Origin: an uncultured Acholeplasmatales bacterium
Lineage (GTDB): Bacteria > Bacillota_I > Bacilli_A > Acholeplasmatales > Anaeroplasmataceae
Assembly (NCBI GenBank): GCA_905236965.1
Contig: CAJOQR010000064.1
Coordinates: 1 to 43,191, forward strand
Reading direction: 5' to 3'
DNA length: 43,191 nt
Positions 8,887 through 28,865 of the stretch are shown piece by piece; positions within the stretch are counted from its first letter, which is position 1, and the number at the start of each line of letters is the position of its first letter. A model generated the notes under the pieces. It was given only the letters and a program-made list of their open reading frames with translations. It ran no database searches and was not told the origin of the DNA. The translations under genes and the position numbers were made by a program.

Positions 8887-11310
8887 TTATATTTTAATAA
8901 CAACTTTAACTTCAGGGACATCTTTGTCATATGGAATTATTTTTCCATCAATTATCTTATCATTAATGATCATTTGATAATTGCCTGAATTATTGTTATC
9001 AATACTAATATTATATTTAATACCCCTATAAATTCTTATAACATCTGCATGTTTAATTTCTTTTGGAAGATGTGGATCTATCATTAAACCTGAATATTCT
9101 GGTTTAATACCTAATATTGCTTGACTTGCTGCAAACATTGTCCAAGAAGCAGTACCTGTTAACCAGCTATTTTTAGCTTCTCCATAATTTTTAGCATTCC
9201 TTCCAGCAATTGTTTGTGAATATACATATGGTTCAGTTTTATGTATTTCTGATACATCTTCTAAATATGCTGGGCAGTTTCTTTTATAAACATCAAATGC
9301 TCTTTCATTATTTCCTATTGTTGTATTCGCTATAACAATCCAAGGATTATTATGACAGAATACTGAACCATTTTCTTTATATCCCATTGGATATGATGAT
9401 ACCTCTCCAAGCTCTATATGGTATTCTTTATAGCATGGATTTAGTATTTCTACACCATAATCGTTTGTTAAAATTTTTTCAACAGAATCTAAAGCTTTTT
9501 TACCATATCCTAAATCTTCACCAATCCTTGCCATTGTACAAAAGCCTTGTGGTTCAACAAATATTTTTCCATCTTCACATTCATTGCTTCCGACTTTGTT
9601 AGAAAAAGCATCATATGCTCTTATAAACCAATTGCCATCCCAACCATATTTTATAGTTGCATCTTCAATAGATTTTACTTCATTTAAGATATAATTTGCT
9701 TCATCATTTAAATTTATATTTTTAAGTATATTTGAAAATTCTTTTCCATAAAGGACAAACATTCCTGCTATAAAAACTGATTCAGCTTTTCCTGATTCAA
9801 AATTAGAAGCAGTTTGGAAGGATTCTCCTGGTGTTTTAGAAAAACAATTTAAATTTAGACAATCATTCCAATCGGCTCTTCCAATAAGTGGTAAGCCATG
9901 TGGGCCCTTATGAGTAATAATATAATTAATTGAAGCTCTTAAATGGTCAATTAATGGCTTTTCAGAACCTTCTTTATTATTAAATGGTGTAGGCTCATCT
10001 AAAATAGAATAATCTCCTGTTTCTTTTATATATTGACTTACTGCAGCTATTAACCATAAAGGATCATCATTAAATCCTCCTCCAATATCTGCATTTCCTC
10101 TTTTAGTTAATGGTTGATATTGATGGTATGTTGATCCATCTTCAAATTGAATGGATGCAATATCTATAATACGCTCTCTTGATTTTTCTGGTATTAGATG
10201 TAAAAAGCCTAATAAATCCTGGCAGCTATCTCTAAATCCCATACCACGACCTGTTCCACTTTCATAATATGATGCAGATCTTGACATATTAAATGTAACC
10301 ATACATTGATATTGGTTCCAAATATTAACCATTCTATCAAATTTTTCATTATCAGATTTAACATGTAATGTTGATAATAAATTTATCCATTTATTCTTTA
10401 ATTCATTAAAAGCATTTAATACTTTTTCTTTTGAATTGTATTTTTCTTGTAATTCATAAGCATGGATTTTATTTATTACATGCAATTTTTCAAATTTTTC
10501 TTCTTCAAGATTTTCAACATATCCTGTTTGGAAAATAATTGTTTTAGATTCATTTGGTTTTAATTCTATATTAAACATATGTGAAGCAATTGGAGACCAA
10601 CCAGACGCAATAGAATTAAAAGAAGTAGCATTTTTTACAGCAATAGGATCACACCATGAATTATATAATCCAATAAAAGTATCTAAATCAGAATCAAATC
10701 CATCATGCTTTATATTTGTATGATAAAATGCAAAATGATTTCTTCTTTCTCTATATTCTGTTTTATGATAAATAGTTGAGTCATCAATTTCAACTTCACC
10801 TATATTCCAATTTCTTTGGAAATTAGTTTGATCATCAACCGCATTCCATAAGCACCATTCAATTACACCATGAAGTGTAATTTTTTTTGTTTCATTACTA
10901 TTATTTGTTAAAGTCAATTGATTTATTTCACATAAATCATTTAATGGAACAAAGCATAATAATTCACATTTTAAATTATTTTTTTCGCTTTCAAATATAC
11001 TATAGCCTAATCCATGTCTACATTTATAATTATCTAATTTTGTTTTAAAAGGTAAGAATCCTGGATTCCAAATTGTTCCGTTATCATTAATATAGTAATA
11101 TCTTCCACCATAATCCCTTGGAACATTATTATATCTAAATCTTGTAATTCTTCTTAATTTGGCATCCTTATAAAACATATATCCGCCACATGTATTACTC
11201 ATTAAGCTAAAAAAACCATCTTGTCCAAAATAATTAATCCATGGTAATGGTGTATTATAATCTGTAATTACGTATTCATATTTTTCATCATCAAAATATC
11301 CGAATTTCAT
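8887..11310 (-). CDS. GH94 glycoside phosphorylase, cellobiose phosphorylase-like
   Basis: 807 aa; MKFGYFDDEKYEYVITDYNTPLPWINYFGQDGFFSLMSNTCGGYMFYKDAKLRRITRFRYNNVPRDYGGRYYYI, GMGFRDSCQDLLGF, GRADWNDCLN, typical cellobiose phosphorylase signatures. Confidence 0.92.
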   Translation of the reverse strand: MKFGYFDDEKYEYVITDYNTPLPWINYFGQDGFFSLMSNTCGGYMFYKDAKLRRITRFRYNNVPRDYGGRYYYINDNGTIWNPGFLPFKTKLDNYKCRHGLGYSIFESEKNNLKCELLCFVPLNDLCEINQLTLTNNSNETKKITLHGVIEWCLWNAVDDQTNFQRNWNIGEVEIDDSTIYHKTEYRERRNHFAFYHTNIKHDGFDSDLDTFIGLYNSWCDPIAVKNATSFNSIASGWSPIASHMFNIELKPNESKTIIFQTGYVENLEEEKFEKLHVINKIHAYELQEKYNSKEKVLNAFNELKNKWINLLSTLHVKSDNEKFDRMVNIWNQYQCMVTFNMSRSASYYESGTGRGMGFRDSCQDLLGFLHLIPEKSRERIIDIASIQFEDGSTYHQYQPLTKRGNADIGGGFNDDPLWLIAAVSQYIKETGDYSILDEPTPFNNKEGSEKPLIDHLRASINYIITHKGPHGLPLIGRADWNDCLNLNCFSKTPGESFQTASNFESGKAESVFIAGMFVLYGKEFSNILKNINLNDEANYILNEVKSIEDATIKYGWDGNWFIRAYDAFSNKVGSNECEDGKIFVEPQGFCTMARIGEDLGYGKKALDSVEKILTNDYGVEILNPCYKEYHIELGEVSSYPMGYKENGSVFCHNNPWIVIANTTIGNNERAFDVYKRNCPAYLEDVSEIHKTEPYVYSQTIAGRNAKNYGEAKNSWLTGTASWTMFAASQAILGIKPEYSGLMIDPHLPKEIKHADVIRIYRGIKYNISIDNNNSGNYQMIINDKIIDGKIIPYDKDVPEVKVVIKI

Positions 11311-21934: not shown

Positions 21935-24358
21935 TTATAAACTATTTTTTAAAATCATATTTATTAAATCTTTATATAAAATATTTGCTTCTTTTGCTTC
22001 AGCTGCAAAATGTGAATAACATCCTAATTCAGGAAGAGAATCACATTTAATACAATATATATCATCATTTTTAATTATAAAATTTATTTTTGAATATGCT
22101 TTTAAATTTAATATGCTTGATGCCTTTAAAGAAATTTCTTGCAATTTATTTTCTAATTCTTTTTCTATTTCTGCAGGGCATCTTTTTGATTTAATCCCTC
22201 TTAAATTCATTCCAATTAATTCATCTTTTGTATTTAAAGGAAGAATTTCTAAAACAGGAAGTGGTGTCAAATTAATTGTAGAACAACTAAATTCACGCCC
22301 TATTATATATTCTTCAATAATTATTTCATCATCCCATTTAAAAGCTTCTATAATGGCTTTATTTAATTCATCATCATTAATTACAGCTTTTATTCCAACA
22401 CCATATCCTAATGTATTAGTTTTAACTATTAAAGGATATGAAAAATTATATTTATTAGGATAAATTATTTCATCACCTTTTTTTAAACTATACCATTTTG
22501 GAGTTTTAATATTATTTTCTTTTAAAATAGATTTAGATATTATTTTATTTGTTGCTTTAAAAGAAGATAGATAATCATTTCCTGTATAATCAATTCCTAA
22601 TAAATCGAATGTTGCTTGTATTTTTCCATTTTCTCCATCTGTTCCATTTAATGCAATAAATACTAAATCGCTTTGCTTACATATTTGTAAAACATTAGGA
22701 CCAAAATATGAATCTGTTTGATATATTCTTCTTTTTCTAACAGCCCATAAATCAGGTAAGCTTTCAGGTATTTCTCCTATATCTAAACTATATTTATCTG
22801 GATTTTTAAACGCATCATTTATTTTTATTTCTTCGTCATTATATCCCATATATGAATCAAGTAATATAACATTATGACCTAAATCTTTTAATTCTTTATA
22901 AATCATATAGCCATTATGTAATGAAATATTTCTTTCTATTGATAATCCTCCAGCTAAAACAACTATATTTAAGTTTTCTATATCCTCATCAATTTCATTA
23001 ATATCTAATGTATCTAAATCAATATTTTTACCATTTAAATCTAATTCTAAGGTTTTTAGTTTTTCTTTAGTTAAAGAAACAACAATAAGTGCTTTTGAAA
23101 TTTGTTCTTTTGTTAAATTGACTTCATATTTTTTTATAAGCATTGATTGTATTTTTTTAACAACTATTTTATTTACATGTGAAATTAAAAAATTAGAAAC
23201 ACCTAAGATAATATTTAATTTTTTAGAATTTACTAAATCTTCAATAATTTCAATTGTTTTTACTATTTCTTTAGCATCAAAATGATTCATTATATCCTTT
23301 AAAGATATTAAAAAATTAGGATTTTGCTTAGAATATTTAATTGTAAATGCTAAAACATATGCAGCGTTATCTATATAATCCTCATCACCAATTAAATTAA
23401 ATAAAAAATTAATGAAATCTTCTTGTGAAATCTCTTTATTAACGCTAAATCCTTTTTCAACTAATTCACCAACTAATTTATTATTTTTACTACGATCTTT
23501 ATCTGTTTCTGCAGAACGAATCAAGCTATTAATAAATCCTTTTAAAATTTGCATTTCTGGTCTTTGTCCATTTGGATTTATTTCCATTTTATAATTTTTA
23601 TCATCATCAAAAGAAAAGAAAGTATTAGGACAATGGCTTTCAGCAAAACCTCCTGCACCATATCCAAAGCCTACATAAAATGTTTGTGATCCTATATCAT
23701 TCATTAAAATATTTACAAAATCATAATCTATGTTATGGTTTTGTATAATATTTTGTCTTGATAATATTTCTTTTTTATAATAATTAATAAATTTATCTGA
23801 AAATCCTTGACCATCAAAGGAAACACATCTATCAACAGTATTATTTAATATAGCAATATATTTAGCTTTATTTCCTCCTTTAGAATGTCCTATTACAGTA
23901 ATATAATAATTTTTTAATTCAAATTGTTGATATATAAATTTATACCATTCTAAAGCATTGATTTGTTGTAAAGAATCTATTTGGTTAGCTCCTAAAAAAT
24001 CATCTGTCCATTCCATTGCGGCAGTTCCTCTATATGCAACAACAGATTCTTTTTCTTCTTCATTGATAAATAATATAGATAAACCAAGACCACCACCAAA
24101 AGCCATATCAAAATGTGAATCAATGATTTTTGTTTCACATAATTTTTTGTTTTTTAATATCGCATAAATTAAATTTTTCCAATCATATCCAGTTGTAAAA
24201 GAAGAATAATCCTTTTCATCATCTATTTGTGTTAAATCCATTAAATCAAACATTTCTTTAATAGTTTTCCCAACAAAATTAGATATATTTAAAAGAGGTG
24301 GAATATCTTCTAAATATGTTAAATTTTCTAATAATAATAATTCATCGACTCTAAACAT
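21935..24358 (-). CDS. Fusion protein: N-terminal DUF2974/Mbeg1-like alpha/beta hydrolase, C-terminal D-Ala-D-Ala ligase-like ATP-grasp domain
   Basis: One uninterrupted 807-aa ORF: GHSKGGNKAKYIA nucleophile elbow and VAYRGTA in the N half; VVLAGGLSIERNISLHNG, ALNGTDGENGKIQATFDLLGIDYTG, VKTNTLGYGVGIKAV, EEYIIGREFSC in the C half. Confidence 0.8.
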   Translation of the reverse strand: MFRVDELLLLENLTYLEDIPPLLNISNFVGKTIKEMFDLMDLTQIDDEKDYSSFTTGYDWKNLIYAILKNKKLCETKIIDSHFDMAFGGGLGLSILFINEEEKESVVAYRGTAAMEWTDDFLGANQIDSLQQINALEWYKFIYQQFELKNYYITVIGHSKGGNKAKYIAILNNTVDRCVSFDGQGFSDKFINYYKKEILSRQNIIQNHNIDYDFVNILMNDIGSQTFYVGFGYGAGGFAESHCPNTFFSFDDDKNYKMEINPNGQRPEMQILKGFINSLIRSAETDKDRSKNNKLVGELVEKGFSVNKEISQEDFINFLFNLIGDEDYIDNAAYVLAFTIKYSKQNPNFLISLKDIMNHFDAKEIVKTIEIIEDLVNSKKLNIILGVSNFLISHVNKIVVKKIQSMLIKKYEVNLTKEQISKALIVVSLTKEKLKTLELDLNGKNIDLDTLDINEIDEDIENLNIVVLAGGLSIERNISLHNGYMIYKELKDLGHNVILLDSYMGYNDEEIKINDAFKNPDKYSLDIGEIPESLPDLWAVRKRRIYQTDSYFGPNVLQICKQSDLVFIALNGTDGENGKIQATFDLLGIDYTGNDYLSSFKATNKIISKSILKENNIKTPKWYSLKKGDEIIYPNKYNFSYPLIVKTNTLGYGVGIKAVINDDELNKAIIEAFKWDDEIIIEEYIIGREFSCSTINLTPLPVLEILPLNTKDELIGMNLRGIKSKRCPAEIEKELENKLQEISLKASSILNLKAYSKINFIIKNDDIYCIKCDSLPELGCYSHFAAEAKEANILYKDLINMILKNSL

Positions 24359-27743: not shown

Positions 27744-27907
27744 TATTATATATATAATAAAACTTGAATGAACTGGGTGAATAAATGGCTATTTTTCCAC
27801 ATTTGAAATAAATGTTGTAGAAAAATAAATACCTTTAATATATAGACAAGTAATATTTAATTAGTTATAATTTCAATGTAAAATTTAAATTTCATATTTA
27901 AAGAATA

Positions 27908-27978
27908 AAAAAGGCAAAATAGAAGTAATTCTATGACGCAAAACTAAAGGGTCCAATGTGGATAGCCAGCTACTTATT
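27908..27978 (+). ncRNA. Cyclic di-GMP-I (GEMM-I) riboswitch aptamer 1
   Basis: GGCAAA-ATAGAA-GTAA-TTCTAT-GACGCAAAACTAAAGGGTCC...GATAGCCAGCTAC: conserved GEMM-I core with GNRA tetraloop (27925-27928). Confidence 0.9.
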
Positions 27979-27983
27979 TAAAA

Positions 27984-28065
27984 AATGTTAAAGGCAAACT
28001 TAAGGAAACTTAAGGACGCAAAACTATAGGACCCAAATATATTTATCAGGTAGCCAGTTGTCATT
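27984..28065 (+). ncRNA. Cyclic di-GMP-I (GEMM-I) riboswitch aptamer 2 (tandem)
   Basis: GGCAAA-CTTAAG-GAAA-CTTAAG-GACGCAAAACTATAGGACCC...AGGTAGCCAGTTG: GEMM-I core with GAAA tetraloop (28005-28008). Confidence 0.92.
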
Positions 28066-28107
28066 TAAGTGTTTTATAAACTTAGGACAACTTTTTTATT
28101 TTTTTAA
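28056..28107 (+). terminator. Riboswitch expression-platform terminator
   Basis: AGTTGTCATTTAAGT ... ACTTAGGACAACT followed by TTTTTTATTTTTTT; 5' arm overlaps the P1 3' strand of aptamer 2. Confidence 0.8.
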
Positions 28108-28124
28108 GAAGGAGGTAGTTGTAA

Positions 28125-28865
28125 ATGAATAAAAAAATTAATCTTATCGTATCATTTTTATCTATGCTAACAACTGCTGTTCTTCTTATTGTTACTATTT
28201 TTTCATGGTATACAGAAAATAGAGAAACACATTCAGGCTCAATAATTGGTGGAACAGAAATACCTAAAACAAGTTTTGAATTAGATTATTGGAATGATTC
28301 AAGTTGGGTAGTTGTTAATAATATTGAAAAAACAAATGTTTTACCAGGAACAACAACATATTATAGATTAAAATGTGTTAATAGTGGTGATTCAACTGTT
28401 AGTTTAACTGCAAAATTTGAAGGAATATCATCAAAATTAGATACAGGATATGTAAGAATTTCAGCAGATAATAAATCAGTTACATATAATGGTATAAAAA
28501 CATATGATATTGTTAATAATTCTGTTACAGTTGATCCTGTTGTTGATAATGGTGATACAAAAACTGTTTTGTATGATATATCTGAAGGTAGTATATCTTT
28601 AAGACATTTTAAAATAGAAGAAGGATATATTATTCAAAGATTTGGTACTGTTGAAACAACATCTAATGCTATTTTGAAAAAAGATGATGTTACATTAGAA
28701 TATGATACAATAAGTATTGGCGATCCAATTTTAAATAATCAAGAAATTGCGATTGGAACAAGTTATTATTATTTTGCATTAACATTTTTAGATAATGATG
28801 ATATTGATAGATATTTTATGTATCAAGGATTGTATATTAATTCTTTAACAATGTATGAAAATTAA
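28125..28865 (+). CDS. Secreted/membrane-anchored surface protein, TasA/camelysin-like (SipW-type N-terminus)
   Basis: N-terminal TM ending VTIFSWYTENRETHSGSIIGG; VLPGTTTYYRLKCVNSGDSTVSLTAKFEG resembles the camelysin/TasA beta domain; RBS AAGGAGGT. Confidence 0.6.
   Translation: MNKKINLIVSFLSMLTTAVLLIVTIFSWYTENRETHSGSIIGGTEIPKTSFELDYWNDSSWVVVNNIEKTNVLPGTTTYYRLKCVNSGDSTVSLTAKFEGISSKLDTGYVRISADNKSVTYNGIKTYDIVNNSVTVDPVVDNGDTKTVLYDISEGSISLRHFKIEEGYIIQRFGTVETTSNAILKKDDVTLEYDTISIGDPILNNQEIAIGTSYYYFALTFLDNDDIDRYFMYQGLYINSLTMYEN

Follow-up and report, generated by a model that had tools for sequence, protein, structure and literature searches.

Two back-to-back c-di-GMP-I aptamers precede a single terminator in a predicted ON switch of an uncultured Acholeplasmatales bacterium

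Introduction

Among tandem riboswitches, c-di-GMP-I is the commonest class, with 347 doublets and 12 triplets, and these arrays of one and the same class are listed solely among systems with multiple expression platforms; in the same survey, glycine and guanidine-II fill the Table 1 column for two aptamers on one platform, and the text adds NAD+-I (PMC9481103). According to the available text of a second survey, c-di-GMP riboswitches are enriched as tandem complete riboswitches with their own platforms, and adjacent aptamers, defined by a gap of <20 nt, are enriched for glycine (PMC12452182). Both surveys, the latter as far as that text goes, treat tandem c-di-GMP-I as multi-terminator, 'pseudo-cooperative' systems. 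In the Bc3-5 leader of B. thuringiensis, several class-I aptamers act as an ON switch in which the 5′ arm of the terminator derives from P3, the C92-equivalent and P1 of the aptamer; Bc3, Bc4 and Bc5 are read as three independent elements with the same terminator mechanism, and for Bc4 ligand was inferred to turn transcription on (PMC4759541). The tandem glycine riboswitch joins two homologous adjacent aptamers, with known inter-aptamer contacts, to one platform from which a steeper response is expected; whether its adjacent aptamers are cooperative or redundant is debated (PMC9481103).

Here, we analyse a leader within a window of 43,191 nucleotides, the whole stretch of DNA considered, which forms contig C64 of a draft genome of 1.5 Mb (G000, 83% complete). 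It resembles Bc3-5 in carrying several class-I aptamers, in its predicted ON polarity and in the origin of the terminator 5′ arm, but only its last aptamer can control a terminator, none being found behind aptamer 1. With the glycine riboswitch it shares two homologous adjacent aptamers on one platform, whereas ligand and fold are different. With a gap of 5 nt and no hairpin with U-tract in between, the pair falls among adjacent aptamers as the available text of PMC12452182 defines them. Measured against the surveys, the latter in its available text, back-to-back c-di-GMP-I aptamers on a single platform appear to be an under-described variant and not a new kind, and further cases may sit in supplementary tables.

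Results

Two complete aptamers and one terminator

Scanning the window with cmscan against Rfam returned only two matches, both to RF01051, both complete (model 1-87) and both above the gathering score of 35 (Table 1). The first-pass annotation of this DNA, made from the letters alone, had claimed two complete GEMM-I aptamers 70-80 nt apart and proposed an Infernal scan as a check; their starts lie 80 nt apart. The motifs that it had singled out, GGCAAA, a GNRA-type P2 loop (GUAA in aptamer 1, GAAA in aptamer 2), GACGCAAAACTA and TAGCCAG, are present in both aptamers. Residues are given in Vc2 numbering (PMC4744006, PMC9262584), with position 92 counted from G83 and P3 one nucleotide shorter than in Vc2, as in Cd1 (PMC9262584). 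The interhelical C44-G83 pair is present in both aptamers (C27937-G27965 and C28017-G28053). For P1 of aptamer 2, the strands of the earlier proposal need revision: AATGTTAA extends beyond P1 into the J1/2 linker, and positions 28058-28061 fall within P3 and the junction.

The two aptamers match at 14/14 core positions and at only 8/17 positions of the P2 region, and all P2 pairs form in both despite the different P2 sequences. A diverged P2 with intact core and intact pairs argues, at the level of sequence, for constraint on aptamer 1 and against a fresh copy.

Table 1 Features of the riboswitch locus in the window and of the triple array on contig C58
Feature	Position	Strand	Details
Promoter-like TAGACA-17-TATAAT	27843-27871	+	consensus match only, 11/12
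c-di-GMP-I aptamer 1	27903-27977	+	RF01051 55.8 bits, E 2.2e-8
Aptamer 1 P1	27904-27908/27974-27978	+	
Aptamer 1 pocket residues	G20=27913, C44=27937, A47=27940, G83=27965, C92=27973	+	Vc2 numbering
Linker between P1 helices	27979-27982	+	3-4 nt
c-di-GMP-I aptamer 2 (actuator)	27983-28065	+	RF01051 68.1 bits, E 2.2e-11
Aptamer 2 P1	27983-27987 (AAAUG)/28062-28066 (CAUUU)	+	
Aptamer 2 pocket residues	G20=27993, C44=28017, A47=28020, G83=28053, position 92=U28061	+	Vc2 numbering
Single intrinsic terminator	28056-28107	+	folding, hairpin search
Ribosome-binding site AAGGAGG, first gene	28109-28116	+	
Gene 1, 246 aa	28125-28865	+	N-terminal membrane segment ...TIFSWYTEN; 'W' family
Gene 2, 364 aa	28878-29972	+	signal-like N-terminus ...VITYAWYTN
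Gene 3, 384 aa	29982-31136	+	N-terminus similar to gene 2
Gene 4, giant, 3962 aa	31148-43036	+	N-terminal hydrophobic segment
C58 triple c-di-GMP-I array	G000:C58:11361-11598 (within L007)	minus	back to back, gaps 8 and 3 nt

The leader has one expression platform, located after the last aptamer only. The outer (28056-28062/28086-28092) and inner stem (28065-28070/28080-28085) of the terminator enclose a loop at 28071-28079 and are followed by a U-tract from 28092; its folding energy is -10.9 kcal/mol (z -3.4), with 0-1 of 200 shuffles equally stable. Between aptamers 1 and 2, the terminator search found neither a terminator-like hairpin nor a U-tract, and the linker is so short that a terminator cannot fit there, which bears out the initial reading of one terminator following the second aptamer. 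A generic promoter/terminator scan did not report the terminator at 28056-28107, probably because its 9-nt loop is above the limit of that scan. Same-genus orthologues retain the terminator pairing AGTTG[T/C]C...G[A/G]CAACTTTTTT.

The 5′ arm of the terminator (28056-28070) starts within the P3 3′ strand of aptamer 2 and continues through positions 91-93 into the P1 3′ strand, whose inclusion had been recognised at first pass. Since this arm is common to aptamer 2 and the terminator, bound aptamer and terminator are mutually exclusive; aptamer 1 by itself is unable to block the terminator. The predicted ON switch is supported by sequence, folding and about 60 related genomes, and we infer with considerable confidence a c-di-GMP-dependent ON polarity, which would be expected in vivo as well. 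When the 3′ arm of the terminator is left off, the minimum-free-energy fold of the leader lacks the native aptamers, a prediction that ignores tertiary contacts and ligand. A further helix is predicted between the 5′ leader (27894-27902) and 28064-28072; the triple array on C58 has no corresponding upstream leader. The promoter-like element would place the transcription start near 27878, ~25 nt 5′ of aptamer 1, and promoter elements right upstream of the aptamer are also found at C58 and in relatives.

Controlled operon and c-di-GMP signalling in the genome

Translation of gene 1 starts from the ATG at 28125. None of the four operon proteins matched a family in Pfam or NCBIfam; their N-terminal segments resemble SipW/TasA-type secretion signals, and single-sequence structure prediction of proteins 1 and 2 was uninformative (mean pLDDT 36 and 33). 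What had been called a giant adhesin-like operon is supported as a surface-protein operon, but no Pfam or NCBIfam family backs the word 'adhesin'.

Acholeplasmatales are wall-less mollicutes, and the genome yielded no match for a PBP transpeptidase, as expected without a cell wall. With 83% of the genome covered, we counted 19 matches for GGDEF and 8 for EAL domains, and none for PilZ. Many GGDEF and EAL domains without PilZ make it plausible that riboswitches are the principal effectors of the second messenger, a role that they may play in this genome. For comparison, A. laidlawii (CP000896) has 14 GGDEF/EAL proteins (PMC2408644). Four further c-di-GMP-I aptamers lie outside the window: a single one, upstream of an operon that encodes two EAL proteins, and the C58 triple array, which has one terminator and the same design as the window pair. 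The pocket residues of the triple array are, in order, A20/C92, A20/C92 and G20/U92. Its SipW/TasA-like operon encodes proteins with ...TFAWF... N-termini and a SipW-like signal peptidase (NF046067, E 4.9e-8, with a score well below the cut-off).

Across the order, genes behind the aptamers form recurrent families, which we term W, T and EAL. The W family, which includes gene 1 of the window, stands behind c-di-GMP-I aptamers at 23 loci, and two aptamers occur only in the window. The T family accounts for 45 loci and for most arrays of both designs described below; arrays are enriched at T loci (11/44 versus 4/65, Fisher p 0.009, uncorrected for kinship). The EAL family is found at 10 loci, and several aptamers also precede GGDEF genes. 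The latter are the loci L035, L101, L105, L115, L137 and L140; together with the EAL operons, this suggests riboswitch feedback control of c-di-GMP.

Two array designs across the order

We searched 101 genomes, that of the window included, and found RF01051 in 63; the loci fetched from these searches provided a collection of 130 aptamers from 58 genomes. Arrays follow two designs. In the spaced design, found in the A. laidlawii family (f3) and in G069, 2-4 aptamers lie 41-88 nt apart, and 12/12 upstream aptamers are followed by their own hairpin and U-tract. The back-to-back design is found in the family of the window (G000 twice, G019, G020, G037 and G041), in G083 and, outside the order, in four arrays from a Bacillales MAG, two Clostridia MAGs and a Lachnospiraceae MAG. 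Counting these four, a terminator stands behind 0/12 upstream aptamers, a figure that follows in part directly from the short gaps, where a terminator has no room. The platforms of the G019 and G020 arrays are weak (-4.4 and -5.2 kcal/mol), and the contig of the Lachnospiraceae array ends before its platform.

The adjacent layout is rare: when 398 genomes were sampled evenly across the class, the exact pattern matched only 4 of them. A genome-wide scan for the adjacent-pair pattern gave 37 matches, 20 of which were scanned against Rfam; 14 of these 20 contain at least one RF01051 aptamer, 5 contain two adjacent ones and 6 contain none. Many of the proteobacterial matches outside the Rfam-scanned set are probably due to chance. 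At corresponding loci, the aptamer number ranges from 1 to 3, and the relative G014 has single aptamers at both kinds of corresponding locus, so that aptamer 1 is dispensable for the switch. At L089 (G020), before an EAL gene, the second aptamer, near position 1276, has C at position 20 and is unreported by Rfam; it is possibly a decayed or 'ghost' aptamer.

Ligand specificity

The family has C at position 92, which pairs with the second guanine of the ligand. In the aptamers of the order, U takes this position in 41/130 cases, U28061 of the window among them. U92 may weaken c-di-GMP binding by aptamer 2; it could form a G-U pair with c-di-GMP or alter the specificity. Hypr-type GGDEF domains carry Ser at the specificity position. 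In this genome and three A20-bearing relatives, an active-site motif could be recognised in 27 GGDEF domains, whose specificity position is Asp in 26, Asn in one and Ser in 0/27. A SMODS nucleotidyltransferase (CD-NTase) had no match in the 83%-complete genome. A20, which characterises cGAMP-type variants (PMC9481103), occurs in 16/130 aptamers, all in the family of the window, and never together with U92 (0/130). The A20-bearing loci include L007, L078, L079, L095, L113, L119, L124 and L127. A cGAMP-type GEMM-I variant is unsupported at this locus, whose two aptamers are without A20, with no Hypr type among the GGDEF domains read and no CD-NTase match in the 83%-complete genome. From sequence, c-di-GMP is the likely ligand, and A20 and U92 may tune the affinity for it.

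Discussion

Our preferred reading, to which we assign a probability of roughly 60%, is that of one ON switch in which two c-di-GMP-I aptamers serve one platform and aptamer 1 most likely assists aptamer 2. When c-di-GMP is lacking, the 3′ strand of aptamer 2 would pair with 28080-28092 and the polymerase would stop at the U-tract. By holding aptamer 2 in its three-helix fold, c-di-GMP would lock this strand in P3 and P1, prevent termination and allow read-through into the surface-protein operon with its four genes. Most probably, aptamer 1 would help aptamer 2 to capture or hold ligand within a decision window of ~27 nt, through stacking or docking across the short linker between the P1 helices, and thereby steepen the response. 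The predicted pairing between the aptamers amounts to 15.9 expected pairs compared to 16.2 +/- 6.7 in random aptamer pairs. With base pairing at the null level, any cooperation would be tertiary, for example by P1-P1 stacking, or kinetic, by earlier capture of ligand. Such true cooperation is plausible, although we rate its chances as somewhat short of even.

The main competitor is that aptamer 1 is neutral for switching, being an undecayed copied module, a passive leader or a ligand sink. The variable aptamer number at corresponding loci, with the single aptamers of G014, and the absence of inter-aptamer pairing beyond the null speak for this explanation. Against it, the two aptamers have diverged widely while the core residues and P2 pairs of aptamer 1 are all intact, and the back-to-back layout is found repeatedly: in five genomes of the window's family, G083 and four genomes outside the order. 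We consider neutrality unlikely, if still the strongest of the alternatives. An improbable model holds that the ligand-free aptamers are mutually exclusive and that ligand on aptamer 1 would free aptamer 2 in a sequential, AND-like manner. In this model the P3 5′ strands would pair, 27949-27954 (GGGUCC) with 28029-28034 (GGACCC), a perfect 6-bp complementarity with a pairing probability of 0.98 when the leader stops short of the terminator 3′ arm. The consensus GGGCCU is, however, nearly self-complementary and random aptamer pairs of the same family pair equally well, for which reason we rejected an evolved pairing between the aptamers and regard the P3-P3 pairing as generic; moreover, G083 and the Clostridiales array L062, with GGGACU in both aptamers, cannot form it.

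The first-pass annotation had also raised cooperativity or two-input logic as ideas to test. In a c-di-GMP/cGAMP version of the latter, each aptamer would recognise its own cyclic dinucleotide. The occurrence of A20 in the order, also in two aptamers of the C58 triple, and the difference between C and U at position 92 within the window pair lend this idea some substance, but both window aptamers have G20, and neither the GGDEF domains nor the nucleotidyltransferase search revealed a cGAMP cyclase, which leaves a c-di-GMP/cGAMP reading unsupported at this locus and very improbable. Least credible of all would be independent ON riboswitches in series, pseudo-cooperative as proposed for Bc3-5 (PMC4759541), with an unrecognised terminator of aptamer 1: this is the design of f3 relatives such as A. 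laidlawii, whereas the 5 nt between the aptamers of the window hold no U-tract and the terminator search came back empty there.

The order offers a natural series of 1-3 aptamers on one terminator, with the same ligand class and ON mechanism, next to 2-4 aptamers each with their own terminator, often on related operons, so that the two designs can be compared directly; the uncommon one-terminator variant is well suited to testing cooperativity. We tentatively suggest, at slightly less than an even chance, that several lineages reached multi-aptamer control independently, one Acholeplasmatales family through spaced riboswitches and another through back-to-back aptamers, often for the same kind of surface-protein operon, and that c-di-GMP-I aptamers can be cooperative through one terminator. 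The data further suggest that, in wall-less bacteria, c-di-GMP may govern the expression of surface proteins through riboswitches. Elsewhere in the window, the minus strand carries two ORFs of identical length (8887-11310 and 21935-24358, 807 aa), which are possibly paralogues.
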